Positions 30,467 to 50,189 of a DNA stretch of 64,000 nt are shown here, in pieces. Origin of the DNA: Chloroflexota bacterium. Lineage in GTDB: Bacteria; Chloroflexota; UBA11872. Below the pieces are notes generated by a model. That model was not told the DNA's origin. It searched no databases and was given only the letters and a program-made list of their open reading frames with translations. The position numbers were made by a program, and so were the translations under genes. The number at the start of each line of letters is the position of its first letter. Positions within the stretch are counted from its first letter, which is position 1. The stretch is taken from positions 1 through 64,000 of the forward strand of contig JAPOYR010000013.1 of assembly GCA_026706485.1 (NCBI GenBank), given 5' to 3'.

Positions 30467-30485
30467 GGGCCGACGGCGCCCGAGC

Positions 30486-31379
30486 GTGAGTCACTGGCGC
30501 GACGCGGACGAAATCCGGGCCCGGCTGCGCGGGCCGGTGAATCCATTGCCGACCAAGTTCACCCCCGACGGCGAGATCGATCCGGACGGCATGCGCGCCA
30601 CCATTGACGTGTCGCTCGACGCCGGCGTCGAGGTCATCATGCTCACCTGGGGCGAGGGGCTGGTGTCGCTGCTCACCGACGACGAGGTTGCCGAGATTCA
30701 CCGCATCGTGATCGACCACGTCGGGCGGCGCGCGGTCACCATCGCCTGCGACGCCATGTGGGGGCTCAACAAGGCGCGCGAATTCGCGGCGTATGCGGAC
30801 GGGCTGGGCTTCGACCTCTACATGGCCCGTCCGGCCGAGTGGGCGCGAGGCACGCCCGAGTCGCTGGCGGATTGGTACCGCGGTGTGGCGCAGCAGACGC
30901 GCGTGATGTTCGTGGGCGACGTGCCGCTGCGCACCTGCGAGTTGGTCGAGGACGAGCCGAACCTGCTCGCATTCAAGGAGGACATCGACCTCGCCTACGC
31001 CCATGAGGTCCTGATGCGCTGGGGCGACCGCTGGCCGATGACCGGCGGCGGGGGCATGAAGCGCCACCACCTGCTGTGGCCTCACGGATGCCGCTCATGG
31101 CTGGATGTGTTCGTGCGCTCCTATCCCGAGCCGGCGATGACCTATTGGGACGCGTTGCAGCGGGGCGACGGCGCCACGGCGTGGGCGACCATCGAGCGTT
31201 CCGAGTTGGCCATCGGGCCACTCGTGGCGGCGTGTCGGGTCGGCGGCAACGGCTTCTTCGCGTCCATGGGTGAGGCGCATGGCGTGTCGCCGCGCTGGCG
31301 GCGCTCTCCGGCGCCGAACCTCACCGACGAGGAGATCGCCGACCTGCGCGAGGCGCTGCGGGCGCTGAACCTGGCCTGA
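30486..31379 (+). CDS. Dihydrodipicolinate synthase / N-acetylneuraminate lyase family protein
   Basis: 297 residues with a GTG start. The TIM-barrel aldolase layout is recognisable: 'VNPLPTKFTPDGEIDPDGMR' at the N-terminus, 'GVEVIMLTWGEGLVSLLTDD' in place of the usual 'GTTGE' loop, and the Schiff-base Lys164 in 'NLLAFKEDIDLA'. The usual catalytic Tyr before the 'P-Y-Y' type loop is replaced by 'YMARPAEWARG', and the pyruvate carboxylate-binding loop is altered. It is therefore a divergent member, unlikely to be the lysine-pathway enzyme, and its role is more likely in sugar-acid breakdown. It is the last gene before the glycosyltransferase array. Confidence 0.85.
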   Translation: MSHWRDADEIRARLRGPVNPLPTKFTPDGEIDPDGMRATIDVSLDAGVEVIMLTWGEGLVSLLTDDEVAEIHRIVIDHVGRRAVTIACDAMWGLNKAREFAAYADGLGFDLYMARPAEWARGTPESLADWYRGVAQQTRVMFVGDVPLRTCELVEDEPNLLAFKEDIDLAYAHEVLMRWGDRWPMTGGGGMKRHHLLWPHGCRSWLDVFVRSYPEPAMTYWDALQRGDGATAWATIERSELAIGPLVAACRVGGNGFFASMGEAHGVSPRWRRSPAPNLTDEEIADLREALRALNLA

Positions 31380-31413
31380 TGTCCGTGGCCGCCGGCTTGG
31401 ATCTGACGGGCAC

Positions 31414-33684
31414 TTGACCGCGTTGGAACGACTGGCGCGAGTGCCGCGGCCTGGTTGGGTGGTCACCGGGCTGCTGTGTCTCCCCTGGTTCGTGCTTCTG
31501 GGCTGGTTGGCGAGCGTGAGCTGGTTCATCACCGACGACGCGTTCATCAGCTTTCGCTACGTGCGCAATCTGCTCGAGGGTCACGGATTGGTCTTCAATC
31601 CCGGCGAGTACGTGGAGGGCTACACCAACTTCCTGTGGGTGCTCGAGCTCGCGGCGATCTGGCGCCTGTTCGGGATCCGCCCGGAGGACGTGGCTCAATG
31701 GCTGTCGGTCGGCTACACCGTGGGCACGATCGCGGTGATGCTGTGGTGGGTGGCGCGGATGCCGTGGCTGCGCCACCGAGGGCTGATCGCCTGGATGGCG
31801 TTGGGGTTGATCTGCGGCAGCGCCACGTTTGCCGTGTGGACCTCGGGCGGCGGGCTGGAGACGCGGCAGTTCACGTTCTTCGCCCTGGTTGCGGTGGCCG
31901 CCTTGAGCGTGTTCGGGGCCAACCGCTGGGCGCTGCTGGCGGCCTCGTTGAGCCTGGCCGCCGCGGCGTTGACGCGGCCCGAAGGCCTGCTCGTGGCGGC
32001 TTGCTGCGTCGGCTGGTTCGTGGCGCACCGGTGGTTCACGGCGCGAAAGTGGGACTGGCGCGGGACGCTGGCTTTGGCCGGCCCCTTCGTCGTGCTGATT
32101 GGCGGGCACTTTCTGGCGCGGTATCGGTACTACGGCGAATGGCTGCCGAACACGTACTACGCGAAGCACGTGGGGCCGTGGTACGAGTCGGGGTTTCGGT
32201 ATTTGTGGTCCGCGGCAATTGAGACCGGGCTGTATCTGCTGATCCCACTGGCGGTGGTGGCGCTGCGGGGTCGGTGGCGAGAGCACCGCGATGGGATCTA
32301 TGCCCTGGTGCTGCTCCTGGTTGGGGCGCACATGGTCTATTTGCTCGAAATTGGTGGCGACCTCTACGAATACCGACCGATGGACTACTACTGGCCGTTG
32401 CTGGCGGTGCCGGCGGCGGAGGGTGTCGTGCGGGTGGGTGCGTGGTTGTCGAACTCATTGCGGCAGTTGTCCCGGCGCCTGCGGTGGGCCGGTCCTCGGA
32501 CGCTGGCGGTCGCGCTTTTCGTACCGCTGCTCTTCTATGCCGGCGCAATTCAGGCACTACTCCTGTTCGAGAGCAAGGAAGCGCCCCGTCCCGATTGGGG
32601 CGTCCCTCCGCAAGTCGTGCTCGACGCATCAAACTCCGGGTGGTTGCAGGCTGCGCCGGGGATGCCGGCGCTCGTCGCCATCTCAAATGACTTGCGCTTA
32701 GCCTCCGAGCCGCACTTCGTCGGCCTGAGGACCCAGCAACACCACCAATACAACGCTCCGACGATACCCGGATGGCAGGCCTATGAGGAATCCTCTCGCC
32801 TGGTCATTCCAGCCGATGCCGTGATGTCTTCGTCGACAATCGGAATCGTCTCCTACTACCTGCCGAACCTCACGGTGATCGATTTGTTTGGGCTGGCCGA
32901 CCACACCATTGCCCGCAATCCGGTCACTCTGACGAACAGTGAGCGGCGAATCGCTCACGACCGCTCCGCACCGCCTGGCTATGTTCAGCGCCGGGGGGTG
33001 AACATCCGTCTCTCTCCGGCCGTTGCCACCGAAGCCAAGGCGCTGGCTGGGGCCAACTATGCGCTCCGAGTTGGCCCAGGAACCTGGATGCCGTTCGACG
33101 TCTTCGATCACGCGTGGGCCAACGAGCGATTCGACGACTTCGATCTGCGAGCGACCAATCGATTCTCACAGACTGATCCGGCCGGGAATCGCTTTGCGAA
33201 AGACGGCGTTCGGTATGTGGGTGAGCAGTTTCTCGGGCGCTTTGACGGGACCGATCTGGATGGCTGGCATCGTGAAGTCAAGGCGGTCACCAACCACGAG
33301 TTGGCGCCGTTTCGGGACAGGCGCTTTCCGGTGAGGGGCCACGTGGGGCCCGGGTTCCTCACGACCTACTACCCCGGCAAATGGGAACGGACGGGCCGGG
33401 CGACGTCTCCGACGTTTACGGCGCGGGACGATCAATACCTCGTGTTCCTGATTGCCGGAGAGGAGCATGACCGTGTGGGCCTGCGGCTGCTGGCCGACGG
33501 CGAAGAGGTTGCCCTGTGGCGGGGCGCCAACTGGGAGGCGTTTGAGCTCGTGGTGTATCCGTTGCGCGACGTTGCCGGCAGAGAGCTGCAACTCGAAATC
33601 ATCAACAATGAGATTGGGGACCGCCCGCGCCTCATGCTCGATCACGTGATGTTGGTCCGAAGGGAATCGGTGACGAGCCAATGA
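31414..33684 (+). CDS. GT-C membrane glycosyltransferase, copy A (AftB-like)
   Basis: 756 residues. After the first membrane helix comes 'FITDDAFISFRYVRNLLEGH' with the Asp-Asp of GT-C enzymes, then 'NPGEYVEGYTNFLWVLELAA', 'WTSGGGLETRQFTFF', 'ALTRPEGLLVAACC' and 'GEWLPNTYYAKHVGP'. This motif set resembles mycobacterial AftB-type transferases that use polyprenyl-phosphate sugars. Residues up to about 380 hold roughly ten helices. The region from about 390 to 640 is exoplasmic and differs among the three copies. The last 100 residues form a conserved beta-rich domain ('FLIAGEEHDRVGLRLLADGE'). The TTG at 31414 is the longest plausible start. Two paralogues follow at 34450 and 39893. Confidence 0.87.
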   Translation: MTALERLARVPRPGWVVTGLLCLPWFVLLGWLASVSWFITDDAFISFRYVRNLLEGHGLVFNPGEYVEGYTNFLWVLELAAIWRLFGIRPEDVAQWLSVGYTVGTIAVMLWWVARMPWLRHRGLIAWMALGLICGSATFAVWTSGGGLETRQFTFFALVAVAALSVFGANRWALLAASLSLAAAALTRPEGLLVAACCVGWFVAHRWFTARKWDWRGTLALAGPFVVLIGGHFLARYRYYGEWLPNTYYAKHVGPWYESGFRYLWSAAIETGLYLLIPLAVVALRGRWREHRDGIYALVLLLVGAHMVYLLEIGGDLYEYRPMDYYWPLLAVPAAEGVVRVGAWLSNSLRQLSRRLRWAGPRTLAVALFVPLLFYAGAIQALLLFESKEAPRPDWGVPPQVVLDASNSGWLQAAPGMPALVAISNDLRLASEPHFVGLRTQQHHQYNAPTIPGWQAYEESSRLVIPADAVMSSSTIGIVSYYLPNLTVIDLFGLADHTIARNPVTLTNSERRIAHDRSAPPGYVQRRGVNIRLSPAVATEAKALAGANYALRVGPGTWMPFDVFDHAWANERFDDFDLRATNRFSQTDPAGNRFAKDGVRYVGEQFLGRFDGTDLDGWHREVKAVTNHELAPFRDRRFPVRGHVGPGFLTTYYPGKWERTGRATSPTFTARDDQYLVFLIAGEEHDRVGLRLLADGEEVALWRGANWEAFELVVYPLRDVAGRELQLEIINNEIGDRPRLMLDHVMLVRRESVTSQ
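31831..32153 (+). repeat. 323-nt segment identical to 40370-40692
   Basis: By direct comparison, copy A and copy C of the glycosyltransferase are identical over these 323 nt, then differ at the next base (G here, C at 40693). A second identical stretch is 32398-32534 with 40937-41073 (137 nt). Both have the same offset of 8539. Confidence 0.93.
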
Positions 33685-33762
33685 CCGCGTGTGCAGCATT
33701 GATTGGGGCCGCTCCGACCCGGTCAGGCGGTGAGAATGGTCGCCTCAGGCGAGAGTCAATCG

Positions 33763-33867
33763 ATGACAGTTGATCCGTTTGTGATTCCCGGCCTGCTGCT
33801 CCTGACGTCGGCGCTTATCGTGCTAGCCGCGGGAGGTTACGCCGTGGCTCGCGTTGCGCTGCGGTAG
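33763..33867 (+). CDS. Possible 34-residue single-span membrane peptide
   Basis: The frame encodes 'MTVDPFVIPGLLLLTSALIV' followed by 'LAAGGYAVARVALR', a plausible one-helix membrane peptide. It ends at TAG 33865. The same frame continues four codons later with an ATG at 33880, so it could also be the first half of an interrupted gene. A decayed relative follows copy B at 36865. In 33685-34449 I see only this pair and an AT-rich patch near 34290-34370. Confidence 0.4.
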   Translation: MTVDPFVIPGLLLLTSALIVLAAGGYAVARVALR

Positions 33868-33879
33868 GACGACGAGCGC

Positions 33880-34065
33880 ATGGCGCTGGCGCAGGGGCTG
33901 GTAGTCGGCCTTGCCCGCTGGGGCATCATCACAAACTTCCTGTTGTACGTAGTGCCGGGGCTCTCCGCTGCCGCCGTGATACCGGGCGTGCGGATCAGGA
34001 TTGCCGAGGACGGAGAAGCAGCCTTCGAGCCGTTTGCGGAGGTGCTTGGCGGGAGAACCCTCTAG
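33880..34065 (+). CDS. Possible 61-residue small membrane protein
   Basis: The frame encodes a hydrophobic segment ('GLARWGIITNFLLYVVPGLS') and an acidic C-terminus. It is in the same frame as the peptide at 33763, separated only by the TAG at 33865 and four codons. The two may be separate small genes or one gene with a nonsense change. No homologue is recognised, and no strong ribosome-binding site is seen. Confidence 0.35.
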   Translation: MALAQGLVVGLARWGIITNFLLYVVPGLSAAAVIPGVRIRIAEDGEAAFEPFAEVLGGRTL

Positions 34066-34449
34066 GCCCGCGGCGCGGCCCAGTAGCGTCGAGCCGGGCG
34101 CGTATCTCAATCGTTGCGGATGCCCCAAACGGGCCTGCCGGGCCAAGGCTCGTGCGGATGGGATTGAGCGACCCTCGGATTCAGCGGCCAATCCTGTGAG
34201 ATCGCGTGTAGACGGCCGCACAGCGACTGTCTGGAACCCTGCTTATCGGGGGCATGCTGCCCAGTATCGGTAGAGCGGAGGTCTGGAGTCTGGCTCGTTT
34301 GTAAATATGCATTCACGTCCTTAGGATTCACGAAGAAATCAGCATATCTTGGAAAATGGCCCCTTGACGCCGAAACCAGATGCATTGCTCGTCCCTGCGC
34401 TTTCTCGACCATTGAAAGCCGAGGCGCCGCAAACTCATTGCGCGGGCTG

Positions 34450-36735
34450 ATGCCGTCGCGGCGAATGCCCCGGGTAGCCGCCGCGCTGGCGCTCGTTCTC
34501 TGGTTGGCCCTGCTGGGCTGGCTGGCGAGCGTTGGGTGGTTCATCACCGACGACGCCTTCATCAGCTTTCGTTATGTGCGCAACCTGCTCGACGGGCATG
34601 GCTTGGTCTTCAATCCCGGCGAGTACGTGGAGGGCTACACCAACTTCCTGTGGGTGCTCGAGCTCGCCGCGATCTGGCGCGTGCTAGGCATCCGGCCGGA
34701 GGACGTGGCCCAGTGGCTGTCGGTGATCTATACCGTGGGCACGATTGCCGTGATGCTGTGGTGGGTAGCCCGGATGCCGTTTCTGCGGCATCGCGGGCTG
34801 GTGGCCTGGATGGCGCTGGGGTTGATCGGCAGCAGCGCGACGTTCGCCGTGTGGACCTCAGGCGGTGGGCTGGAGACGCGGCAATTCACGTTCTTCACGC
34901 TGGTCGCGGTCGTCTGCTTGAGCGTGTACGGGACCAATAGTATTTCTCGATGGAATATTTCGGGGGGGGGCAATCGCTGGGCGTTGGCGGCAGCCTCGCT
35001 GAGCCTGGCCGCCGCGGCGTTGACACGGCCCGAAGGCCTGCTGGTGGCGGCGTGCTGCGTGGGTTGGTTCGCGGCGCACCGGTGGTTCACGGCGCGGCAG
35101 GTGGATTGGCGCGGGACGTTGGCGCTGGCGGGCCCCTTCGTGGTGCTGATTGGCGGCCATTTTCTGGCGCGGTATCGGTACTACGGCGAATGGCTGCCGA
35201 ACACGTACTACGCGAAGCACGTGGGGCCGTGGTACGAGTCGGGGTTTCGGTACTTGTGGGCTGCGGCGATTGAGACGGGGCTGTATCTACTGATCCCGCT
35301 GGCGGTGGTGGCGATGGGGAGTCGGTGGCGCGAGCACCGCGATGGGATCTACGCCCTGGTGCTGCTCCTCGTGGGGACGCACATGGCCTATCTCTTCGAG
35401 ATTGGCGGCGACCACTTCGAGTATCGGCCGATGGACCACTACTGGCCGTTGCTGGCGGTCCCGGCGGCCGAGGGCCTGGCCCGTGTGGGCGGCGGGCTGT
35501 GCGCATGGCTCAAGCGCTGGTCCCACTACCCGCGGCGGCTCGGACCACGGACCCTGGCAGTCGCGCTATTCGTGCCCGTCCTCTTCTACGCCAGCGCGAT
35601 TCAGGGCGTTCTGCTATTTGAAGGCCGGACAATGCTTCAGTCCCAAGATGCCGCTCCGTCACAGGTAGCGCTTGATGACCAGAATGCTGCCTGGCTACTG
35701 ACGGTGCCGGGGATGCCGGCGCTGGTCGCCCTTTCGAACGACCTGCGATTTGAGTCCGGTCGACATCTGGTTGGGATGAGGACCTACGAGCATCACGCCG
35801 CCGCCAGATGGCGCATCGGCGGGTGGCAGCCCTACGAGCACACGGCGAGCCGGTTTCTTCCGGGCGATGCGGAAATGACCATGGACGCAATGGGCATTGG
35901 TCCCTATTTCCTGCCCGATGTGGTGTTTGTCGACGTGTTCGGGCTGGTCGATGCGACCGTGGCCAGGAATCCAGTTGCCAGGTCGAACAGCGAGCGAGTG
36001 ATTGCCCACGACCGCACCCCTCCGCCGGGCTACCTGCAGCGTCGAGGGGTAAACATTCGCATCGATCACGCGGTGACAACCGAAGCCCAAGCGCTTGTCA
36101 GACGGAATTACGCGCTGAACGTTGGCCCGGAAATATGGATGCCGTTCGACGTTGTCGATCACCTGTGGGCGAACGAACGCTTCGCCAATTTTGACCTGCG
36201 CGCAAGGAACCGATTCTCGTCGACCGATCCAACGGGGAATCGCTTCACCGTTGACGGTGTCCGCTATGTGGGTGAGCAATTCCTCGGGCGCTTTGACGGA
36301 ACGGATCTGGATGGCTGGCATCGCGAGGTCAAGGCGGTCACCAACCACGAGTTGGCGCCGTTCCTCGACAGGCGCTCTCCGGTGAAGGGCCGCGTGGGGC
36401 CCGGGTTCCTCACGACGTACTACCCGGGGAAATGGGAGCGCACGGGGGAGGCGTACTCGCCGGTATTCACGGCCAGGGACGATCAATACCTGATGTTCCT
36501 CATCGCCGGGGAACGGCATGACTTGGTGGGCCTGCGCCTGCTGGCCGATGGCGAAGAAGTGGCCGTGTGGCGCGGTGACAACTGGAGGCGCTTTGAAATG
36601 GTGATCTATCCGTTGCGCCAACTCGCCGGCAAAGAGCTGCAGCTGGAGATCTTCAACCACGAGATTGGCGACCGGCCGCGCCTCATGCTCGATCACGTGA
36701 TGCTGGTCCGGGAAGAGGCCGCGGTCAGCTCGTGA
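34450..36735 (+). CDS. GT-C membrane glycosyltransferase, copy B (AftB-like), with a G9 tract
   Basis: About 761 residues, sharing the architecture of copy A: Asp-Asp loop 'FITDDAFISFRYVRNLLDGH', 'GEYVEGYTNFLW', 'GEWLPNTYYAKHVGP', a divergent exoplasmic middle, and the conserved C-terminal beta-rich domain. It alone carries a 12-codon insertion at 34939-34974 ('SISRWNISGGGN') containing nine consecutive G residues (34962-34970). Loss or gain of one or two G would frameshift the gene at about one quarter of its length. The start may be TTG 34438, ATG 34450 or ATG 34465. The upstream 384 nt (34066-34449) contain no gene I can support. Confidence 0.87.
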   Translation: MPSRRMPRVAAALALVLWLALLGWLASVGWFITDDAFISFRYVRNLLDGHGLVFNPGEYVEGYTNFLWVLELAAIWRVLGIRPEDVAQWLSVIYTVGTIAVMLWWVARMPFLRHRGLVAWMALGLIGSSATFAVWTSGGGLETRQFTFFTLVAVVCLSVYGTNSISRWNISGGGNRWALAAASLSLAAAALTRPEGLLVAACCVGWFAAHRWFTARQVDWRGTLALAGPFVVLIGGHFLARYRYYGEWLPNTYYAKHVGPWYESGFRYLWAAAIETGLYLLIPLAVVAMGSRWREHRDGIYALVLLLVGTHMAYLFEIGGDHFEYRPMDHYWPLLAVPAAEGLARVGGGLCAWLKRWSHYPRRLGPRTLAVALFVPVLFYASAIQGVLLFEGRTMLQSQDAAPSQVALDDQNAAWLLTVPGMPALVALSNDLRFESGRHLVGMRTYEHHAAARWRIGGWQPYEHTASRFLPGDAEMTMDAMGIGPYFLPDVVFVDVFGLVDATVARNPVARSNSERVIAHDRTPPPGYLQRRGVNIRIDHAVTTEAQALVRRNYALNVGPEIWMPFDVVDHLWANERFANFDLRARNRFSSTDPTGNRFTVDGVRYVGEQFLGRFDGTDLDGWHREVKAVTNHELAPFLDRRSPVKGRVGPGFLTTYYPGKWERTGEAYSPVFTARDDQYLMFLIAGERHDLVGLRLLADGEEVAVWRGDNWRRFEMVIYPLRQLAGKELQLEIFNHEIGDRPRLMLDHVMLVREEAAVSS
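34501..34859 (+). repeat. 359-nt segment identical to 40025-40383
   Basis: Copy B and copy C are identical base for base over this stretch, and differ at the next base (A here, G at 40384). It covers the first helix, the Asp-Asp loop and the second and third membrane segments. Confidence 0.93.
34939..34974 (+). other. 36-nt in-frame insertion with G9 homopolymer
   Basis: Copies A and C read Asn-Arg-Trp at this point. Copy B has twelve extra codons before the Arg-Trp, ending in TCG GGG GGG GGC, a run of nine G (34962-34970). The insert is AT-rich apart from the run, and looks like an imperfect internal duplication of the Asn..Arg-Trp codons. Confidence 0.8.
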
Positions 36736-37042
36736 TCACACCGGCGGGGCATTGATTGACGCCACGGCGGTGCCCACCGATGTGGGCCCCCTCCGGCTCG
36801 CGGGGGCTGACATGACGGACTCCCTACTCTTGCGCCGGACGATTCACCGGCTGAGAGTCGATGAATGCCTGTTGATCCGACCGTCGTTTCCGGCCTGCCG
36901 CACCTCGCCGTCGGTCGCCGTGATGGCGCTTCGCGACGGCGGAGCCCCCGGAGTCCGCTGCGCGCGCAGACTATAGACTGGCAAGCCCGGCGGCTTTCGT
37001 ATCCCAGACGGTGGCAGTCCACGTAGCGCTTGCGGGAGTGAT
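36736..37042 (+). other. Gap with a decayed copy of the post-copy-A small gene
   Basis: From about 36750 the sequence aligns with the region after copy A: 'GCATTGATTG' near both stops, a shared GAGAGTC, and 36865 onward (ATGCCTGTTGATCCG) against 33763 (ATGACAGTTGATCCG). The hydrophobic peptide is lost through indels. A 74-codon open frame at 36752 has no protein-like character. Confidence 0.55.
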
Positions 37043-39592
37043 GTGAGGCACGGAGTACTGGTCCGTGCGTTGCCGGGTATCGCGCTTGTGGCTGCCGCGC
37101 TGGCTGCCCTGCTGATCGTGCTTGCCGTGGACACTCCAAGCGGCGAGTCCGTGGTTCCCTTGGAGACGACGCCGACTCCGGTGCCCCCGCCGGAACCGGC
37201 GGTCGAGGCAACGCCTGACCCGGATGACGCATCGCCCCCGGAAACCATGGTTGAAATGGGGAGACGGATGTACGCGCTGCACTGCGCCGTGTGTCACGGG
37301 GAAAACCTCGAAGGAGGAATCAGCCCGTCGCTTGCCGGACCCGAGCTGTCCGATCGCTATGCCACGGCACTCGACCTCTACGACTACATCCGCAACCGCA
37401 TGCCCGCCGGAGGCGTTGGCCCCGGGGGCCTCATCGATCCCGAGTATCTCCAGATCACCGCGTTCATGCTTAACCAACGCGGCGTGTTGGCCAGTGATGT
37501 CGAGCTCACGATTGATCTGGCCGACGCGACCCCGCTGGAGCCGACGGACACATCACTGTCGGCCGTCGTCGCATTGCCGCCACCACCGCCAGAATCAGCG
37601 CCGGTTCTCACGCCCGCGGCCAGCGGCAATACGCCGCCGCAACTGCCCGCCTTGGTTGAGCCGGCGACGGTGCTGCTTCGCGACGGACTTTCGCCAGTCT
37701 TCGTCACGCTGCAGACGGGGCCGTTTGTCGACGCGGACCCGGACGATCGGCACACGGCGACAGAGTTCGGAATCTGGGAGCTGGGCGGCTTTACTCGGGT
37801 TTGGACCGCCCTGGTGACGGCCAACCCTCTCGACCAAGCGACGCTTGAGCGCGGGGTCTTCGAGGGTTCCCTCGCAGGGCGAATGAGCCTCGACCATAAG
37901 ACGACCTATGCCATCCGTGCGCGCCATCGCGATTCCAGCGGCGACCCGCTGAGCGAGTGGTCGGCGTGGTCGGACCTGTGGATGGTGGTGACGGCCAAGC
38001 ACGATAACCCGACTGCCCGGCCGATGCGGTTGCGTGACATCCAGACGCACAGCCTTCGCTGGCAGGCGGACGACGGCAGGCCGGTCGCGCTGACGACCGG
38101 CGCCACGCTGCTGATCACCAGCCCGATCAGCGGGCTGCATGAAATCTCCGGCGCCGCCACGGGCAATGTCGTGCGGGACTTCGAACCGGCCGAGCGCTAT
38201 GCCAGCGTATTCTTCAGGTTTGAGGCTGGCCCGGATGGCCTTGAGGTCCCCGCATCGGAGCTGTCGTTCCTCGACGCGACGGGAGTGCGGCGGATCGCGT
38301 GGCTGCCCTGGCTCAAGCTTGATCCAGGCGCCGTGCTCATTGCCGCGCCGACGGCCACGGGCGCGTTTCACTTTGAGGCGGACGATACACCGCTGGGCCT
38401 TGCTGGCACCGAGCCCAAGCTGTTTTCCCACTCCCAGGCCCGCGCGCCGGCGGTGCCCTGGCGCGTACGTGAGGGATTTCGCGTCGAGTTGGTGGCGGAA
38501 GGATTCAACCTGCCGGTGCTGCTGGCACCGGCGCCATCGCCATCCGACGCCCCGGACGCGCCCGTGGCCTACGTCACCGAGCTCGCCGGCGCAGTCAAGG
38601 CGCTCGGACGGGACGGTTCGGTGTGGACGTATGCGTCGAACATCCTCGGTGAGCAGCCGTGGGCGCCGATCACGGAGTTTGAAGGCGAAACCGGAACGAT
38701 TGGAATCGCGGTCGATCCCCAGACTGGCGATGTCTATGTCACGACCACGTACCGCTCCGGCGACGAGCTTTACAACAAGATTGTGCGCCTCGAGAGCGAC
38801 GACGGCGGCCGCACGGCGGCGCGCGCTGTCGACGTGCTGCGCATGGAGGGCGAAGCGACGGAACCTTCGCACCAGATTCAGGGGCTGCTATTCGGCCACG
38901 ATGACCGGCTGTACGTAGCGGTCGGCAACGGGGCGGTTCATTCCACCCGGGGACTTGACAACGCCTACTTTGGCGGCAAAGTGCTTCGCCTGAATCGGGA
39001 CGGCAGCGCGCCGCGTGACAATCCCCATTTCGACCCCGCGCAACCCGCAGCGCCGGTGTCCTATCAGTGGGCGAAGGGGCTGCGCAACTTCGTCGCGCTG
39101 GCTCAGCGCCCTGGCGACGGTGCCATCTATACGGCAGAGAACGGCGATCACGTTGACCGCCTGCTGCGCGTGGAGACGGGGCAAAACTATGGCTACACGG
39201 GGACTGACCGCAGCCTCCTGCAGCGTGGATTGTGGTTCTTCGAACCGGCCATTGCGCCCGTTGGCGTTGCCTTTGCTGTCGACGGGGCATTTCCGGCGGA
39301 CCGTCAAGGCAATCTATACGTGGGCGCATTCGGGCCGGAGCCCCATAGCTTCGTCCGTGGGACCGTTGACAATGGCAAGGCAATTTGGGAAATCAAGCTG
39401 GACGCCGCTGGGGCGGTCGTGGGGCGTCCGACGATATTCGTGAAGTATGTCGGCGCTGGCGTGGCGCCGATTACGGGCGTGGCCTACCTGGCCGACGGGT
39501 TGTATTTCTTGGAATTCACTGCCGACATGCCGCAAGGGGTGAACCCGGAGCCCGCCGGTCGACTATGGCGCGTCGTGCCGCTCGCGGGCTGA
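37043..39592 (+). CDS. Secreted cytochrome c / PQQ-type sugar dehydrogenase beta-propeller protein
   Basis: 849 residues with a GTG start after GGGAG. An N-terminal membrane anchor or signal (about 8-29) and a Pro/Thr linker precede a class I cytochrome c domain with heme motif 'CAVCHG' (Cys81, Cys84, His85) and a likely axial Met in 'RNRMPAGG'. A Pro-rich linker and an unassigned beta-rich middle (about 210-470) follow. The C-terminal 350 residues look like the glucose/sorbosone dehydrogenase propeller ('VRLESDDGGR', 'SHQIQGLLFGHDDRLYVAVG', 'YQWAKGLRNF', 'YTAENGDHVDRLLRV', 'NYGYTGTD'). It would oxidise a sugar or alcohol outside the membrane and pass electrons to its own heme. It sits between copies B and C of the glycosyltransferase. 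Confidence 0.87.
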   Translation: MRHGVLVRALPGIALVAAALAALLIVLAVDTPSGESVVPLETTPTPVPPPEPAVEATPDPDDASPPETMVEMGRRMYALHCAVCHGENLEGGISPSLAGPELSDRYATALDLYDYIRNRMPAGGVGPGGLIDPEYLQITAFMLNQRGVLASDVELTIDLADATPLEPTDTSLSAVVALPPPPPESAPVLTPAASGNTPPQLPALVEPATVLLRDGLSPVFVTLQTGPFVDADPDDRHTATEFGIWELGGFTRVWTALVTANPLDQATLERGVFEGSLAGRMSLDHKTTYAIRARHRDSSGDPLSEWSAWSDLWMVVTAKHDNPTARPMRLRDIQTHSLRWQADDGRPVALTTGATLLITSPISGLHEISGAATGNVVRDFEPAERYASVFFRFEAGPDGLEVPASELSFLDATGVRRIAWLPWLKLDPGAVLIAAPTATGAFHFEADDTPLGLAGTEPKLFSHSQARAPAVPWRVREGFRVELVAEGFNLPVLLAPAPSPSDAPDAPVAYVTELAGAVKALGRDGSVWTYASNILGEQPWAPITEFEGETGTIGIAVDPQTGDVYVTTTYRSGDELYNKIVRLESDDGGRTAARAVDVLRMEGEATEPSHQIQGLLFGHDDRLYVAVGNGAVHSTRGLDNAYFGGKVLRLNRDGSAPRDNPHFDPAQPAAPVSYQWAKGLRNFVALAQRPGDGAIYTAENGDHVDRLLRVETGQNYGYTGTDRSLLQRGLWFFEPAIAPVGVAFAVDGAFPADRQGNLYVGAFGPEPHSFVRGTVDNGKAIWEIKLDAAGAVVGRPTIFVKYVGAGVAPITGVAYLADGLYFLEFTADMPQGVNPEPAGRLWRVVPLAG

Positions 39593-39892
39593 GTCCGAGA
39601 CGAGGCTGGAGGCGTGGGCGACCGACGCTGCACAGCGCGCGATCAGCGCCGACTCACGTGCGAGGATTTCGCCGAACGACGTCGGAGTCGCCGTTGCGAC
39701 CTCAGAGCGGTTGTTCAGAGTCTGCATGGAGGGTTAGGTCTCGCGAGGTGTTCGCAGATGTCTCGTGAGTGCGGTCGGCTGTTCCACGCCTCGACAACAC
39801 TGTGACAGCCGCTCGCTTCGCTAGGATGTGGTTTCCTGCCCCTCAAGTTCTCGGAGGGTCGTTGCGGCTTTCGGCGCGCGAGTTCGCCAGGC
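39593..39892 (+). other. 300-nt gap without a supported gene
   Basis: Between the propeller gene and copy C I see no protein-like frame, repeat or clear promoter. Open frames here are short, Arg/Ser-rich and overlap one another. Confidence 0.5.
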
Positions 39893-42208
39893 ATGAAGCC
39901 GGAGCACGATGGAGCTTGGAGTTCCGTGCGCGTCTCTGACGGTACAGACCCAATAAGAGTCGCGCTCGGCCGGGCACGCGATCCCCGCACCCACTCGTTC
40001 GTCATCGCGCTGGCGCTCCTTCCCTGGTTGGCCCTGCTGGGCTGGCTGGCGAGCGTTGGGTGGTTCATCACCGACGACGCCTTCATCAGCTTTCGTTATG
40101 TGCGCAACCTGCTCGACGGGCATGGCTTGGTCTTCAATCCCGGCGAGTACGTGGAGGGCTACACCAACTTCCTGTGGGTGCTCGAGCTCGCCGCGATCTG
40201 GCGCGTGCTAGGCATCCGGCCGGAGGACGTGGCCCAGTGGCTGTCGGTGATCTATACCGTGGGCACGATTGCCGTGATGCTGTGGTGGGTAGCCCGGATG
40301 CCGTTTCTGCGGCATCGCGGGCTGGTGGCCTGGATGGCGCTGGGGTTGATCGGCAGCAGCGCGACGTTCGCCGTGTGGACCTCGGGCGGCGGGCTGGAGA
40401 CGCGGCAGTTCACGTTCTTCGCCCTGGTTGCGGTGGCCGCCTTGAGCGTGTTCGGGGCCAACCGCTGGGCGCTGCTGGCGGCCTCGTTGAGCCTGGCCGC
40501 CGCGGCGTTGACGCGGCCCGAAGGCCTGCTCGTGGCGGCTTGCTGCGTCGGCTGGTTCGTGGCGCACCGGTGGTTCACGGCGCGAAAGTGGGACTGGCGC
40601 GGGACGCTGGCTTTGGCCGGCCCCTTCGTCGTGCTGATTGGCGGGCACTTTCTGGCGCGGTATCGGTACTACGGCGAATGGCTGCCGAACACCTACTACG
40701 CGAAGCACGTGGGTCCGTGGTACGAGTCGGGGTTTCGGTATTTGTGGGCCGCGGCGATGGAAACGGGGCTGTATCTGCTGATCCCGCTGGCAGTGGTGGC
40801 GCTGCGGGGTCGGTGGCGAGAGCACCGGGATGGAATCTATGCCCTGGTGCTGCTGCTGGTGGGAACGCACATGGCCTACCTCTTCGAGATCGGGGGCGAC
40901 TACTTCGAATACCGCCCGATGGACCACTACTGGCCATTGCTGGCGGTGCCGGCGGCGGAGGGTGTCGTGCGGGTGGGTGCGTGGTTGTCGAACTCATTGC
41001 GGCAGTTGTCCCGGCGCCTGCGGTGGGCCGGTCCTCGGACGCTGGCGGTCGCGCTTTTCGTACCGCTGCTCTTTTACGCCAACGCCCTTCAGGCAGCACT
41101 GCTATTCGAGGGCAAGGCGGTGGCCAAGCTCGATGGCAGCCAATCTCTGCAGATCGCGCTTGGAAACCAGAACACGGCCTGGTTGTTGGCCGCGCCCGGT
41201 ATGCCGGTGTTGGTGGCCGTCTCCAACGACCTGCGCTCAGAGTCCGAGAAACGGCTGGTGGGCCTCCGAACGCATCAACGCAGCCACCATGCCCATAGAA
41301 TTCGCAAATGGAAGCCTTACGAAGACTTCTCCGGTCAGGTTATCCCCAGCGATGCGGTGACGGTCATGGGAGCCGTCGGGATTGCCCCCTATTTCGTGCC
41401 AACGTTGGAGGTGGTCGACAGCTTTGGACTAGTCGATGCGACGGTCGCCCGCAACCCGGTGACACCGACCGACAGCGAGCGGCGAGTTGCTCACGACCGC
41501 AGTCCGCCGCCGGGCTATCTGCAGCGGCGGGGGGTGAACATCCGGCTCCATTCGTCCGTTGCAACCGAAGCCGAGGCACTGGCTCGGGCCAACTATGCGG
41601 TCGAAGTTGGCCCAGGAATCTGGATGCCGTTTGACGCCTACGATCACGCGTGGGCGAACGCCCGATTCGGCGACTTAGGTCTGCGAGCCGAAAACCGCTT
41701 CTCGCAGGACGACCCGGCCGGCAATCGCGTGATCAAGGACGACGTGCGCTACGTGGGCGAGGAGTTTCTCGGGCGCTTCGAGGACCGGGGGTTGGATGGC
41801 TGGCGACGCGAGAGCAAAGCGGTCACCAATCACATTCTGGGTCCCTTCTACGACCGCGTGTACCCCGTTGAAGGGCACGTGGGCCCTGGGTTTCTCACGA
41901 CGTACTACCCGGGAAAATGGGAGCGCACGGGGGAGGCGTACTCGCCGGTATTCACGGCGAGAGACGATCAATACCTGATGTTCCTCATCGCCGGGGAACG
42001 GCATGACTTCGTGGGCCTGCGCCTGCTGGCTGATGGAGAAGAAGTGGCCGTTTGGCGCGGTGACAACTGGAGGGCCTTTGAAATGGTGATCTATCCCTTG
42101 CGCCAACTCGCCGGCAAAGAGCTGCAGCTGGAAATCTTCAACCACGAGATTGGCGACCGGCCGCGCCTGATGCTCGATCATGTGATGCTGGTTCGACGGG
42201 AATCATGA
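39893..42208 (+). CDS. GT-C membrane glycosyltransferase, copy C (mosaic of copies A and B)
   Basis: 771 residues from ATG 39893; a GTG at 39926 with GGAG upstream is an alternative start. The architecture matches copies A and B, with an Asp-Asp loop, 'VEGYTNFLW', 'LPNTYYAKHVGP', a variable exoplasmic middle and a C-terminal beta domain. The nucleotide sequence is chimeric. Positions 40025-40383 equal copy B, 40370-40692 and 40937-41073 equal copy A, and 41890-42190 is again close to copy B ('GKWERTGEAYSPVFTARDDQ'). The switch from B to A falls within 40370-40383. It lacks the G9 insertion. The enolase-superfamily gene follows 34 nt later. Confidence 0.87.
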   Translation: MKPEHDGAWSSVRVSDGTDPIRVALGRARDPRTHSFVIALALLPWLALLGWLASVGWFITDDAFISFRYVRNLLDGHGLVFNPGEYVEGYTNFLWVLELAAIWRVLGIRPEDVAQWLSVIYTVGTIAVMLWWVARMPFLRHRGLVAWMALGLIGSSATFAVWTSGGGLETRQFTFFALVAVAALSVFGANRWALLAASLSLAAAALTRPEGLLVAACCVGWFVAHRWFTARKWDWRGTLALAGPFVVLIGGHFLARYRYYGEWLPNTYYAKHVGPWYESGFRYLWAAAMETGLYLLIPLAVVALRGRWREHRDGIYALVLLLVGTHMAYLFEIGGDYFEYRPMDHYWPLLAVPAAEGVVRVGAWLSNSLRQLSRRLRWAGPRTLAVALFVPLLFYANALQAALLFEGKAVAKLDGSQSLQIALGNQNTAWLLAAPGMPVLVAVSNDLRSESEKRLVGLRTHQRSHHAHRIRKWKPYEDFSGQVIPSDAVTVMGAVGIAPYFVPTLEVVDSFGLVDATVARNPVTPTDSERRVAHDRSPPPGYLQRRGVNIRLHSSVATEAEALARANYAVEVGPGIWMPFDAYDHAWANARFGDLGLRAENRFSQDDPAGNRVIKDDVRYVGEEFLGRFEDRGLDGWRRESKAVTNHILGPFYDRVYPVEGHVGPGFLTTYYPGKWERTGEAYSPVFTARDDQYLMFLIAGERHDFVGLRLLADGEEVAVWRGDNWRAFEMVIYPLRQLAGKELQLEIFNHEIGDRPRLMLDHVMLVRRES
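40025..40692 (+). repeat. Chimeric segment: 40025-40383 from copy B, 40370-40692 from copy A
   Basis: Direct comparison shows 359 nt identity with 34501-34859 and 323 nt identity with 31831-32153. The two identity blocks overlap by 14 nt (40370-40383), where all three copies agree. Recombination between paralogues therefore occurred inside that window. Confidence 0.92.
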
Positions 42209-42242
42209 GTCAGTCTGAGGCTGGCGCTTGGGGGCACCCACG

Positions 42243-43457
42243 ATGCGCATAACGGAAATCCGCTCACTCCTTCACCATCCCGCGCGATTGACGCTGATTG
42301 AGGTTCACACGGATGCGGGAATCGTGGGGCTAGGGTCCACGGCGTCCCCGCCGGGCATGATCGACGCGATCATCGAAGATCCCAGCGATGGGCTGGGCCT
42401 TTTTGTGGTGGGACAGGATCCTACCGATCCCAAGGCGCTGTGGCGGCGGATGGTTGAACGTTGGCCGGCGCAGCGGGGACGGGCCGATCACAGCGGCTTG
42501 CAGGCCAACGCCATGGGGGCCATCGACATGGCGGTGTGGGACATCGCCGGCAAGGCCGCCGGCAAGCCGGTGCACGAGCTGCTGGGCGGCGCTCGCCGGG
42601 ACCGCGTGCTGGCCTATGGCTCCGCGTCCACGATGTTCTACGCCGCAAGCAAGAAGAGCGACGAGACGGAGCGTGAGCGCGAGCTGCGGCACAAGTCGCC
42701 GGAGGAGATCGCCAGCGAGTGCACGACGCTCCGCGAGCAGTGCTTCAAGGCGGTCAAGTTCGGCTGGGGCGACGACTTTGACGACGACGGAATGGCCAAG
42801 CTCGCCGCGGCCCGCGAGGCGCTGGGGCCCGATGTCCGCCTGAGTGTCGATTTCGGCTGCCCCGCCTACTTCGACCCCGATTGGACTGTTGCGGACGCCA
42901 TTGCCGCCGCCCGTAAGCTCGAAGCGTACGACGTGTACTTCTTCGAGGAGGCCTTGCACCCATTGGACGTGGACGGCTTCGCCGAGGTGACCGCGGCCAC
43001 GTCCGTCCACATCGCCACCGGCGAGAGCCTGACCACGACCGAGGAGTTCGAGCCATTCATCCGGCGTCGCGCGCTCGATATCGTCCAGCCGGACGCCGCG
43101 CAGATGGGGATCACGCAGACGCTTCAGGTGGCGCGCGACGCCGAGGCCGCGGGCATGATGTGCGTGCCCCACGGCCCGTGGACGGTCTTCACCGTCACCT
43201 GCCACACGCAGATCCTGAGCGTGGTGGGCCTGGAACCCATGATCGAATACCCGGCGCTGGTCAGCTATCGCGGTGAGGGCCTCATCACGCAACGAGCCAC
43301 GGCACTGGCCAACTACGAGCTCGTGGAGACGCCGCCCGAGCTGGTGGACGGGCACGTGATGCTGCCGCAAGGTCCCGGCCTGGGCCTCGGCGACTTGGTG
43401 CCGGAAGCCGTGGAGCGCTATCAGGCCCTGATGCACGAGGCGGCATCGGCGTCTTGA
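42243..43457 (+). CDS. Mandelate racemase / muconate lactonizing enzyme family (enolase superfamily)
   Basis: 404 residues from ATG 42243, which follows GGGGG at a suitable distance; a TTG five codons earlier is less likely. The capping domain starts 'MRITEIRSLLHHP'. The barrel shows 'FKAVKFGWGDDF' (Lys-x-x-Lys region), metal ligands Asp in 'LSVDFGCP', Glu in 'YFFEEALHP' and Glu in 'IATGESLTTTEE', then 'QPDAAQMGITQT' and a His in 'CVPHGPW'. These fit an acid-sugar dehydratase or racemase of the MR subgroup. The specific substrate is not decidable. It heads a catabolic stretch that continues with the M81 peptidase gene. Confidence 0.9.
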   Translation: MRITEIRSLLHHPARLTLIEVHTDAGIVGLGSTASPPGMIDAIIEDPSDGLGLFVVGQDPTDPKALWRRMVERWPAQRGRADHSGLQANAMGAIDMAVWDIAGKAAGKPVHELLGGARRDRVLAYGSASTMFYAASKKSDETERERELRHKSPEEIASECTTLREQCFKAVKFGWGDDFDDDGMAKLAAAREALGPDVRLSVDFGCPAYFDPDWTVADAIAAARKLEAYDVYFFEEALHPLDVDGFAEVTAATSVHIATGESLTTTEEFEPFIRRRALDIVQPDAAQMGITQTLQVARDAEAAGMMCVPHGPWTVFTVTCHTQILSVVGLEPMIEYPALVSYRGEGLITQRATALANYELVETPPELVDGHVMLPQGPGLGLGDLVPEAVERYQALMHEAASAS

Positions 43458-43551
43458 CAGCGTGGTGTTGATTCGGGCGCATTTGGCTCAGCGGCCGATA
43501 CCCGCCGGCTCGCGTACCATCGCATCCGATCACCGGCACTCTTGAGGCGCC

Positions 43552-45033
43552 ATGCGCATCGCCACCGGCACCATTGCCCACGAATCCAGCACCTTCACGC
43601 CGATTCCCACCCCCTACGAAGCATTCTCCGAAGGTTCGGCCCTTGGCATCGTGCGCGGGCAGGAGATCCTCGAGGCGCACCGCGATACCAACCGCGAGCC
43701 TGCCGGCTACCTGGACAGCGCCGAGGAGCGCGGATTCGATCTCGTAGGGCTGCTGTGGACCGCGACGCAGCCATCAGGCCCAATCGAGGCGTCGGCGTGG
43801 AGTCGTCTGAAGGGCGAGTTCGTCGAACGCTTGCAGGCCGCCATGCCGGTCGACGGCGGACTCTTCGACCTGCACGGCGCGATGGTTGCGGAGGGCGTCG
43901 AGGATGCCGAAGGCGACCTGCTAGAGGCCATCCGCGAGGTCATGGGGCCCGACCGGCCGATCTTCGTGACGCTCGACCTCCACTGCAACATCACGCCGCA
44001 GATGGTCGAGATGGCCGACGTCATCATCCCGTGCGACAACTTCCCGCACACCGATCTGCGCGAGCGCGGGCGCGAGGCCGCCGACCTGATCGTGCGCACG
44101 CTGCGGGGTGAGATTCAGCCCGCGATGAGCTGGACCCAGCTGCCGCAGCTCTGGGTGGCGGGGCAGTTCACGGGGCTGCAGCCGTTCAAGTCGATCATCG
44201 AGCGGGCTCACGAGCTGGAGGCGCAACCGGGCATCCTCACGGCCTCCGTGGCGCCGGGGTTCACCTGGGCCGACATCGAGCACGCCGGGTCCTCGGTGAT
44301 CGTCATCGCGGACGGCGACCAGGCGCTGGCCGACCGCGAGTCGCGCGCGCTCGGCGAGTGGGTGTTCGCACAGCGCGGGCACTTCGACGCACACATGGTG
44401 AGCTTCGACGAGGCCGTGCAGACCGCGCAGGCGATGGACAGCTGGCCGGCAGTGATCTCGGACCCACAGGACAACCCCGGCGCGGGAACGCCCGGCGACT
44501 CCACCGGCATGCTGCGGGCGTTCCTCGAGGCCGACCTTCAGAACGCACTGCTGGCCTGCATGTGGGACCCCGAAGTGGCGGCGGCCGCGACGGTTGCCGG
44601 AGTCGGCGCTGAGCTGACCGTCGAGGTGGGCGGCAAGTCGATCGCTACCCAGGGCGCGCCGGTGCCCATCACCGCGACCGTCGAGCACCTGTGGGACGGC
44701 CGGTTCACCATCGAGGGCCCGATGCATGCCGGCATCCTCGAGGATTACGGCCCAACGGCGGTGCTCCGGCGCGGCGGCGTGCACGTGGCCGTGATGACCG
44801 AGCGCAGCCAGATCTATGACCTGGAGCCGATTCGCCAGATGGGATTCGACCCAGCCTCCCTTCGCTGGATCGGTCTCAAGTCCATCAATCATTTTCGGGC
44901 CGCGTTCTCGCGGGTATCGGACAGCATTCACCGGGTCGAGTTCCCCAGCTGCCAGCCGCACGACGCGCGCAAACTGCCCTTCAGGCGCCTGCGAAGGCCA
45001 ATCTGGCCGCTCGACGAGGACGCGAGGCTTTAG
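43552..45033 (+). CDS. M81-family metallopeptidase (MlrC-like)
   Basis: 493 residues, the normal size for MlrC-type proteins. The N-terminus 'RIATGTIAHESSTFTPIPTP' is the family opening. Metal ligands are expected in 'GGLFDLHGAMVAEG' and 'VTLDLHCNIT', with 'NFPHTDLRERGREAADL' completing the catalytic region. The C-terminal MlrC domain has 'DNPGAGTPGDSTGML'. The archetype linearises peptide degradation products of microcystin, but most members act on unknown amide substrates. Its neighbours, HyuA/HyuB and an enolase-superfamily enzyme, suggest breakdown of small cyclic amides or amino-acid derivatives (inference). Confidence 0.92.
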   Translation: MRIATGTIAHESSTFTPIPTPYEAFSEGSALGIVRGQEILEAHRDTNREPAGYLDSAEERGFDLVGLLWTATQPSGPIEASAWSRLKGEFVERLQAAMPVDGGLFDLHGAMVAEGVEDAEGDLLEAIREVMGPDRPIFVTLDLHCNITPQMVEMADVIIPCDNFPHTDLRERGREAADLIVRTLRGEIQPAMSWTQLPQLWVAGQFTGLQPFKSIIERAHELEAQPGILTASVAPGFTWADIEHAGSSVIVIADGDQALADRESRALGEWVFAQRGHFDAHMVSFDEAVQTAQAMDSWPAVISDPQDNPGAGTPGDSTGMLRAFLEADLQNALLACMWDPEVAAAATVAGVGAELTVEVGGKSIATQGAPVPITATVEHLWDGRFTIEGPMHAGILEDYGPTAVLRRGGVHVAVMTERSQIYDLEPIRQMGFDPASLRWIGLKSINHFRAAFSRVSDSIHRVEFPSCQPHDARKLPFRRLRRPIWPLDEDARL

Positions 45034-46831: not shown

Positions 46832-48897
46832 GTCGGTGCGACCTCAAGCACGATGTCGCCCGTCGCGTGCACGTGGGCCGATGTGGCGGGCGGCACCACC
46901 AGCGTCGTCTGGTCTTGAATGATCAGGGCCGGGCCGTCGATTTGGTCGTCGCGGCCGAGACTCTCGCGTGCAAACACGGGCGCGTCGTGGCTATCCCCGG
47001 CCCAAATCATCGGCTGAACGCCGAGTTGGCGCCGGGCCAGCGGCTCCGCCGGGAGCGCAAGTTCGGTCGAGCCGGGACGTACCGTCCGGGCCGTGATGCT
47101 GGCGCGCAGCGTGACCCACTCGATCGGCGCGCCTTCGTCTCGATGCCCGTGCAGCCGTGCGTGCGCTCGGTGGAATTCGCGACCCACCTGGCGCCGCATG
47201 TCGCCATCGAACGCCGCCGGCTCGTCGAGCCACACCGGCACCTCGTAGGCCTGGCCGGTGTAGCGAGCATCGACGCCGAGACGGGCGCCAATTGCCTGGT
47301 CCTCGAATCCGGCTTCACGCAGCTCGCGCACGCCTTGGTCGCGCATGTCGGCGAAGCGAAGCTCCACCTCGGGAAGCTCGAGCTCGGTTTCGGCGCTGAG
47401 CATGGCGGTGGAGAAGTCGCGGCGAGCTTCGGCCACGAGCAGGCCGCGCGCCGACTGCACCCCGGCCTCCGGCGGAATCACGACCCGGTTGCAGCCAAGC
47501 TCGCGCGCGAGGTCCGCCGCGTGCATGGGTCCGGCCCCGCCGAACGCCACCATCACGAACTCCCGCGGATCGTGACCGCGCGCCACGGAGACGAGCTCCA
47601 ACGCCCGTCCCATTTTCGCGCCAGCAAGCGCCAGGATGCCCTCCGCCGCGGGCTCGACGCTCATGCCCAGCGGGCCGGCGACGTGTTCGGCCACCGCCCG
47701 CCGCGCGGCGTCAACGTCCAACTGGATATGACCGCCGGCAAACCGATCGGGCCGCAGGCGACCGAGCACGGCATTGGCGTCGGTGGTCGTGGGACGCGTG
47801 CCGCCGCGGCCGTAGCAGGCCGGCCCCGGCTCCGCGCCGGCGCTGGCCGGACCCACGTAGAGCGAGCCGCCGGTGTCCACGCCGGCGATCGAGCCGCCGC
47901 CGGTGCCGATCTCGACAAGATCGATCACCGGGGTGCGAAGCGGATAGCCGGTGCCGAAGCCTCCGTGCACTCCCCCGCCGATCTCGTAGTCGTTGTTGAT
48001 GGTGACGTGACCATCGCGGATCAGGGTGGCCTTGGTGCTGGTGCCGCCCATGTCGAACGAGATCACGTTGGACGCTCCCAGCCGCCTTCCGACCTCTGCG
48101 GCGGCGATCACCCCCGCTGCCGGTCCTGACTCGACGATCGAGGCCGGTTCGCGGGCCACCGTGGCGGCGGGCGCCATGCCGCCGCTCGATTGTATGACCG
48201 AGAGCGGTGCGCTGATGCCGCGCGTCGTGAGCCGGGAGTCGATGTCGCCGATGTAGGTCGCAACCCGCGGCAGAACCGCCGCATGCACCGCCGCCGTGCT
48301 GAAGCGCTCGTACTCGCGATACTCGCGGCACACGGCGTGACTGGCGACCACCGGCAGGCGCGTCTCGTCCGCAATGACGGCGGCGGCCTCCCGCTCATGC
48401 TGCGGGTAGCCGTAGCTGTGCAGAAACGCCACCACGATCGCCTCGGCCCCCAGGTCCTTCAGTTGGTGGGCGGCGCGCACCACGTCGGCCACGTGGAGGG
48501 GTTCGACGATTGAACCGTGGGCGCCGATGCGTTCGCGCACCTCCAGCCGCCGCTCGCGCGGGATCAAGGCTGGAGGCTTTTCCAGAAATAGGTTGTAGAG
48601 GTCGCGCCGCTGGTGACGCCCAATCTCCAGCACGTCGCGAAAGCCTTGGGTCGTCACCAGGCCCAGCCGCGCCGTGGTTCCCTCCAGCACGGCGTTGGTG
48701 GCGACGGTGGTGGCGTGGACGATCTCGCGGATCTCCTTCACGCTGGAGGCGGCCTGCCAACGGTCGAGCACGTCCATGAGGCCTTCCGCCGGATTGGCCG
48801 GCGTGGTCAGGACTTTGGCCGACCAGGTGCGCCCGTCGTCCGCCACGGCGAACAGGTCAGTGAACGTGCCGCCGATGTCGATGCCAACGCGAGTCAA
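46828..48897 (-). CDS. hyuA: Hydantoinase A / oxoprolinase family protein
   Basis: 689 residues with an ASKHA-type ATPase fold. The phosphate-1 loop is 'GIDIGGTFTDLFAVADD', followed by 'VHATTVATNAVLEGTTARLG', 'SSGGMAPAATVAREPASIVE', 'ISFDMGGTSTKATLIRDG' and 'FGGAGPMHAADLARELGC'. It forms the ATP-dependent half of the HyuAB enzyme. ATG 48897 is at the family position (residue 1 is two residues before 'VGIDIGGT'). It is divergent from the sialidase-like gene with a 101-nt shared upstream region. Confidence 0.94.
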   Translation of the reverse strand: MTRVGIDIGGTFTDLFAVADDGRTWSAKVLTTPANPAEGLMDVLDRWQAASSVKEIREIVHATTVATNAVLEGTTARLGLVTTQGFRDVLEIGRHQRRDLYNLFLEKPPALIPRERRLEVRERIGAHGSIVEPLHVADVVRAAHQLKDLGAEAIVVAFLHSYGYPQHEREAAAVIADETRLPVVASHAVCREYREYERFSTAAVHAAVLPRVATYIGDIDSRLTTRGISAPLSVIQSSGGMAPAATVAREPASIVESGPAAGVIAAAEVGRRLGASNVISFDMGGTSTKATLIRDGHVTINNDYEIGGGVHGGFGTGYPLRTPVIDLVEIGTGGGSIAGVDTGGSLYVGPASAGAEPGPACYGRGGTRPTTTDANAVLGRLRPDRFAGGHIQLDVDAARRAVAEHVAGPLGMSVEPAAEGILALAGAKMGRALELVSVARGHDPREFVMVAFGGAGPMHAADLARELGCNRVVIPPEAGVQSARGLLVAEARRDFSTAMLSAETELELPEVELRFADMRDQGVRELREAGFEDQAIGARLGVDARYTGQAYEVPVWLDEPAAFDGDMRRQVGREFHRAHARLHGHRDEGAPIEWVTLRASITARTVRPGSTELALPAEPLARRQLGVQPMIWAGDSHDAPVFARESLGRDDQIDGPALIIQDQTTLVVPPATSAHVHATGDIVLEVAPT

Positions 48898-48998
48898 TCT
48901 GCTGTCCGCCGCGTGATGTCGCAGGGTGGGATTGTAGTCGCGACCCGCCTGGATACCGGCCGCCTATACTCGGCACAGGCGACCCCCGGAGACCGCTT

Positions 48999-50099: not shown

Positions 50100-50189
50100 A
50101 TTCACGCCTGCCAGGAATTGGCGGCGACCGATCCGTGCGACGCCCATTGGACGAGCCCAGGGTGAACCGATTGGCTAAGGCGCCTGGCC

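Follow-up and report, generated by a model that had tools for sequence, protein, structure and literature searches.

The window analyzed here (the whole stretch of DNA, 64 kb), from an uncultured member of the Chloroflexota, contains three genes predicted to encode GT-C glycosyltransferases, all on the forward strand: copy A (31414..33684; 756 aa as called), recognized from its ORF call, homology, and a search of its own genome; copy B (34438..36735; 765 aa), from its ORF call and alignment; and copy C (39893..42208; 771 aa), which repeats and alignment resolve into A-like, B-like, and private segments. The start codon of copy A is uncertain, with the frame open from about 31369, and copy B carries a 12-aa insertion that A and C lack. 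A cytochrome c/glucose-sorbosone dehydrogenase-like gene (37043..39592, forward strand; Pfam) splits the array between B and C. On the left lies a DHDPS-family gene (30486..31379, forward strand) and on the right a mandelate racemase/muconate lactonizing (MR/MLE) family gene (42228..43457, forward strand), and both flanks are supported by synteny: the DHDPS-family gene also adjoins the first copy in the same-genus genomes G002, G003, G004, and G005, and the MR/MLE gene lies beside the final copy of G003 and beside the lone gene of G004 and of G005.

The source genome (G000) consists of 13 contigs, with the array inside one of 344 kb, and a search of that genome found no copy beyond A, B, and C. 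The genes flanking the array are catabolic. Only three sugar-related neighbors were seen within about 20 kb (within window positions 23828-24826 and 48864-52415): a weak match to dTDP-4-dehydrorhamnose 3,5-epimerase, a BNR-repeat (sialidase-like) protein, and a GH42/GH35 family protein. A search between A and B for a second, degraded cytochrome gene found none. At the equivalent place in G003, a cytochrome-type gene is reduced to its last ~128 codons (79% identical; L038 512-895, minus strand), and the cytochrome c/glucose-sorbosone dehydrogenase-like gene thus appears to be decaying or being lost in that species. A mobile-element origin was not found in plasmid and phage searches, which returned distant partial relatives only from plasmids and, among phage records, zero matches to the longest tract of identity described below (tract 1).

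Predicted fold and domain layout

No Pfam family scored above its cut-off for the three proteins, and the only informative PDB match by sequence was the arabinosyltransferase AftB (E of 0.003); on the AftB equivalog model NF041481 they reached 32 to 34 bits, missing the cut-off of 1,050 bits. An AlphaFold2 model of copy C built from 36 homologues (pLDDT 78.9, pTM 0.79) places membrane helices up to residue ~412, a periplasmic domain up to ~600, and a beta-sandwich thereafter. Foldseek searches of the PDB with this model returned EmbC, AftB, EmbB, ArnT, and ALG12, all of them GT-C (E of 1e-8 to 1e-4), and A, B, and C are accordingly modeled as GT-C enzymes with the arabinosyltransferase (AftB/EmbC) fold. 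The beta-sandwich (residues 600-771) resembles CBM35, CBM4, and CBM22 (E of about 1e-3 to 5e-3, TMt of 0.45 to 0.60); in an earlier model from a 15-row alignment (pLDDT 48), the C-terminal part was the most confident and matched CBM16, CBM22, and CBM61.

Residues D62, T91, and R221 of AftB are reported to be catalytic or donor-binding (PMC12041299), and the residues aligned to them lie within the membrane half and are conserved. The DD within WFITDDAF falls on the D62-containing DD motif of AftB, and the EGYT threonine and RPEG arginine align with T91 and R221; AftB E172 matches GGLET only once a gap is shifted, and R372 falls outside the alignment. DDAF is present in every covering row save one copy from the same-family genome G011, which has EDAF and keeps the second Asp (L042 4487-6079; SEDAF versus TDDAF in the others, the first Asp being replaced by Glu).

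The membrane half, of ~350 residues, is the best-conserved part of the family across the phylum. Protein identity between the three copies is 87 to 95% over residues 45-394, 57 to 60% over residues 395-600, and 81 to 85% over residues 601-771. The sequence-only reading had described the genes as differing strongly outside their identical tracts; this is true of the periplasmic domain but not of the membrane half, at 87 to 95% protein identity.

Identity tracts and the mosaic of copy C

Three exact repeats (all forward strand) underlie the mosaic structure that the sequence-only reading had reported for copy C, and all three were recovered. Tract 1 (40024..40383) is identical to copy B at 34500-34859 over 360 nt on recheck, one more than the 359 nt first given; tract 2 (40370..40692) is identical to copy A at 31831-32153 over 323 nt; and tract 3 (40937..41073) is identical to copy A at 32398-32534 over 137 nt. 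Direct reading of the sequences side by side bears out the crossover window at 40370..40383 (forward strand), a 14-nt interval common to A, B, and C in which copy C switches from B-like to A-like. Copy C is private before 40024, and between tracts 2 and 3 a segment (40693..40936, forward strand) stands ~11% off both of the other copies (88.5% identical to A, 89.7% to B). Tract 3 ends inside the last predicted transmembrane helix (at residue ~393 of a helix spanning residues 381-412). The identity tracts fall mostly in the catalytic membrane half and stop at its last helix.

Beyond 41073, copy C is diverged from A and B for ~600 nt. This region holds its variable periplasmic domain (41075..41692, forward strand; residues 395-600), marked by the 57 to 60% amino acid identity between copies and by a conflicting tree, with equivalents at approximately 32536-33156 in A and 35587-36207 in B. 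Two further tracts lie downstream. In the C-terminal carbohydrate-binding-like domain, B and C are 93.7% identical in the alignment over 41890..42200 (forward strand), including exact pieces of 44, 47, 35, and 35 nt, and A/B and A/C are only about 79% identical over the same stretch. Copy A in turn is ~92% identical to B across alignment codons 641-680 (33226..33357, forward strand, approximate bounds), with 35 nt exact (33277-33311 = 36328-36362), in a region that differs from C by about 30 to 45%. All exact direct repeats of at least 30 nt found in a scan of the whole window lie between A, B, and C. Because B-like, A-like, and private segments alternate in C and a separate A/B tract is present, the mosaic is wider than first noted, a patchwork built up by several exchanges that differ in age and not by one crossover.

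A recombination test had been suggested by the sequence-only reading, and both 3SEQ-style and GENECONV-style permutations reject chance. The codon alignment of A, B, and C has 648 polymorphic columns, and at 428 of these C sides with A or with B but not with both (223 A-like, 205 B-like). The one-sided sites are ordered in long runs: 44 B-like sites span 40030-40369, 37 A-like sites span 40384-40741, and a second A-like run of 44 sites spans 40948-41068. Permutation gave p<=1e-5 in both directions for the 3SEQ-style walk and p<=5e-5 for the GENECONV-style run test. When only synonymous sites in the conserved half were counted, the latter test gave p<=2e-5 for A/C and for B/C and was not significant for A/B.

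These synonymous sites bear on the idea that the likeness of the membrane halves needs no explanation beyond strong functional constraint or a recent duplication. The phylum-wide conservation of the membrane half speaks for it, but synonymous differences number zero inside the tracts and are frequent just outside them in the same region, and adjacent segments give conflicting trees (see below). Constraint and simple duplication yield neither pattern, and as a sole explanation they are contradicted by the synonymous-site run test and extremely improbable.

The tracts could also raise the suspicion that the mosaic of C was assembled from collapsed or misjoined near-identical repeats, since common short reads are shorter than the 360- and 323-nt tracts and contigs of related MAGs break inside these genes. 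However, the overlap at the B/A junction is 14 nt, below any usable k-mer, and therefore a de Bruijn graph misjoin cannot make the B/A switch in C. Moreover, C has private segments between its tracts, the array sits well inside its 344-kb contig, and the combination of a homogenized membrane half with an old variable domain recurs in separately assembled genomes. With so short an overlap and relatives that behave alike, we consider an artefact very unlikely and favor recombination over repeat misassembly, as the sequence-only reading had done. Its further claim that the recombination between copies was recent is likewise supported by the exact tracts, the permutation tests, and the conflicting segment trees.

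The view of C as the recombinant stands in part. Its mosaic structure holds; its role as recipient does not follow, since C donating tracts to A and B is equally short, with the same event count as C receiving two tracts. Outgroup distances favor neither direction for tracts 1 to 3: in tract 1, A is nearer to G005 than B is (92.0% versus 87.9%), and in tract 2 the distances of A/C and of B hardly differ (87.6% and 86.3%). The incoming DNA may also have come from another cell, C (or A/B) having acquired allelic or paralogous sequence by recombination between strains. The segments of C unlike both A and B could derive from an unsampled allele or copy, but the long perfect tracts match copies in the same genome, and intragenomic exchange explains them without an outside donor. 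We regard a between-strain origin as possible, if on the unlikely side; the two routes are not mutually exclusive, and exchange within a genome cannot be told here from exchange with the alleles of other cells.

Arrays in related genomes and the histories of adjacent segments

We found family members in the same-genus genomes G001 to G005, in G011 from the same family, and in G034 and G037 from the same class; class and phylum searches added distant homologues and no more close arrays. Each species is represented by one assembly, so that exchange is inferred across species and was not observed within a population, and the arrays of the relatives come from apparently short-read assemblies. The number of copies differs from one species to another. 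In G004 and G005 a lone gene sits with the DHDPS-family gene to its left and the MR/MLE-family gene to its right; the count in G003 is at least three, including two interrupted by contig ends; three tandem copies occur in G011, together with the start of a fourth at a contig end; and G037 has two. Contigs break inside these genes with shared ends of 141 nt in G003 and 55 nt in G002, as expected of near-identical repeats. G003 also has copies outside the syntenic array (L037 1-1588 and L039 1-312), one of them beside a PNPase-like gene, which suggests that family members can move to other loci. G001 retains only an N-terminal remnant off the syntenic locus (L047 8398-8883), a pseudogene with an in-frame stop.

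The sequence-only reading had proposed comparison with related genomes for other chimeras, and the same behavior recurs in them, with a chimera-like copy in the independent genus of G011. There, copies 2 and 3 share an exact tract of 305 nt and copies 1 and 3 share exact tracts of 218 and 516 nt, and copy 3 looks like a 2/1 mosaic. The tracts themselves are beyond doubt; the join could be the choice of the assembler, because the overlap at the switch, 55 nt, equals the apparent assembly k-mer (the length of the contig ends shared in G002). Copy 3 of G011 is also split over two frames near codon 527 (L042 6016-6079), by either a frameshift or an assembly error.

Adjacent segments of the genes have conflicting histories. 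In the membrane-segment tree, A groups with C (support 99/98) and a grouping of A with the G003 copy G003_30c is rejected (p-AU of 0.0011). In the variable-domain tree, A groups instead with G003_30c (support 100/99), and AU tests reject A+C (p-AU of 0.00026), A+B+C (3e-7), and the three G003 copies together (4e-5). From these AU-tested trees it follows that the variable-domain types are older than the split between G000 and G003 and that the membrane halves were homogenized afterward. Synonymous divergence agrees: dS between A, B, and C is 0.8 to 1.7 in the variable domain versus 0.1 to 0.55 in the membrane half, and dN/dS between related variable types is 0.17 and 0.69. With synonymous divergence between paralogues this high, the variable domains are old, and between related types they are under purifying selection. 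Some exchange has also reached the variable region, since C and A resemble each other somewhat more there than either resembles B.

Positions within the arrays have shifted as well. For A and for the G005 gene, the nearest neighbor changes sharply at the border between constant and variable regions. The leader of A is orthologous to that of the first-position gene of G005, G003, G002, and G004 (85% identical to G005 and 78% to the first-position gene of G003) and is only about 50% identical to B, C, and the other copies of G003. In G003, in turn, the variable type of A belongs to the final copy of the array, the one immediately preceding the MR/MLE gene; by similarity, the same variable type occupies different array positions in different species. 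The flanking genes of G005 are the nearest to those of G000 (mostly 92 to 97% amino acid identity), and its single gene pairs the variable type of the first G003 copy with final codons nearest the last G003 copy (94% versus 70%). Part of the cytochrome gene persists within the G003 array, which makes a loss of copies in G005 through unequal crossover the simplest account. One candidate explanation, that all copies share an ancestral mosaic from an ancient duplication, was rejected by outgroup comparison, neighbor switches, and AU tests: outgroup distances, neighbor scans, and trees reveal outgroups without the same mosaic.

The sequence-only reading had gone further and called the array an active shuffling system. 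Dedicated or selected diversification, reshuffling glycosyltransferase specificity at high frequency in the manner of antigenic variation, would find some encouragement in the recurrence of exchange in at least two genera and in a constant/variable layout with breakpoints at the domain border. However, a Pfam scan of 27 further ORFs in the window found no recombinase or transposase domain, and no long inverted repeats occur within 29000-44000, so that neither the site-specific recombinase nor the inverted sites of a shufflon were found in the regions scanned. Silent donor cassettes feeding one expression locus, the mark of antigenic or phase variation, are likewise absent from G000, which has three full-length copies only. 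The variable domains are old (paralogue dS as above) and under purifying selection, and the flanks are catabolic rather than part of a surface-polysaccharide locus. We therefore judge such a system unlikely; with each genome represented by one assembly, the claim of active shuffling goes too far, and a dedicated mechanism is not needed, because plain homologous recombination between tandem paralogues suffices.

Taken together, A, B, and C very probably form a paralogous GT-C family undergoing repeated ectopic homologous recombination through gene conversion and unequal crossover. The membrane half, with its catalytic and predicted donor-binding motifs, is patchily homogenized between copies of one genome, and the next ~200 residues, an outward-facing domain, are old, separately inherited types. 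The conserved membrane half would provide the homology for strand exchange by the general recombination machinery of the cell; breakpoints would then collect within this half and at its border, and leaders and membrane halves would be re-paired with different variable domains. A stronger version, in which the genes act as constant/variable cassettes whose homogenized GT-C half is rejoined to varied acceptor domains and alters surface glycans on a population timescale, is doubtful.

Likely function, precedents, and meaning

The modeled enzymes most likely transfer a sugar from a polyprenyl-phosphate carrier to an extracytoplasmic glycan. From the fold and motifs, a pentofuranose donor is plausible, because the genome also has a UbiA-family gene near the model for DPPR synthase (decaprenyl-phosphate phosphoribosyltransferase). 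It scores 198 bits, just under the cut-off of 207 (G000 contig C6 149268-150134; L090 9053-10168), and lies on another contig than the array, between aconitase and DUF72 genes; its product is a candidate source of the polyprenyl-phosphate pentofuranose donor. The acceptor glycan cannot be named from the catabolic flanks. Acceptor binding is the role of the C-terminal modules in EmbC and AftD, and the CBM of GT136 binds its polysaccharide (PMC11127046); given the likeness of layout to these three, the variable domain may help to select the acceptor glycan.

The GT-C fold, the DD motif, and conserved residues aligning with the donor-binding T91 and R221 are shared with AftB (PDB 9dlf/9dlh, PMC12041299) and with EmbC/EmbB, and the joining of a membrane domain to a C-terminal carbohydrate-binding-like domain resembles EmbC. 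Unlike AftB, the genes described here occur in multiple tandem copies and reach at most 34 bits on the equivalog model (cut-off 1,050). GT136 and the three-component O-antigen pentofuranose systems (PMC11127046) likewise combine a GT-C enzyme and C-terminal CBM with a polyprenyl-phosphate pentofuranose, here a prediction; unlike in those systems, the array is not clustered with such a synthase or a flippase.

Recombination between paralogous glycosyltransferases is already known. The closest precedent is Helicobacter pylori futA/futB, paralogous fucosyltransferase genes that swap short segments by homologous recombination, with chimeras, including alleles from the other locus, among sub-isolates of one patient and with exchange linked to phase variation at homopolymers and to changes in repeat number (PMC2583950). 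In both systems, glycosyltransferase paralogues recombine in one genome; here the proteins are membrane GT-C enzymes, the array has three genes, and exchange is deduced from single genomes of several species. Concerted evolution of bacterial release factor genes (PMC4530459) and Mycobacterium tuberculosis antigen genes (PMC13061034) is reportedly similar in that paralogues are closer than orthologues over part of the gene; unlike in those cases, homogenization here ends at a domain border and variable domains shift array position. A literature search for this exact array returned nothing relevant. New here are the host group, the family of enzymes involved, and how sharply a homogenized catalytic half is set off from old variable domains whose array position differs between species.

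The pattern is ordinary gene conversion, clearly displayed: a natural example, from uncultured bacteria, of a membrane enzyme in which recombination homogenizes one domain and leaves the adjacent one as old, separable types. Short-read metagenome assemblies break such arrays, and copy number and variant types are consequently undercounted. If the variable domain sets the acceptor, re-pairing of this kind would offer a plain route to new glycosyltransferase specificities.
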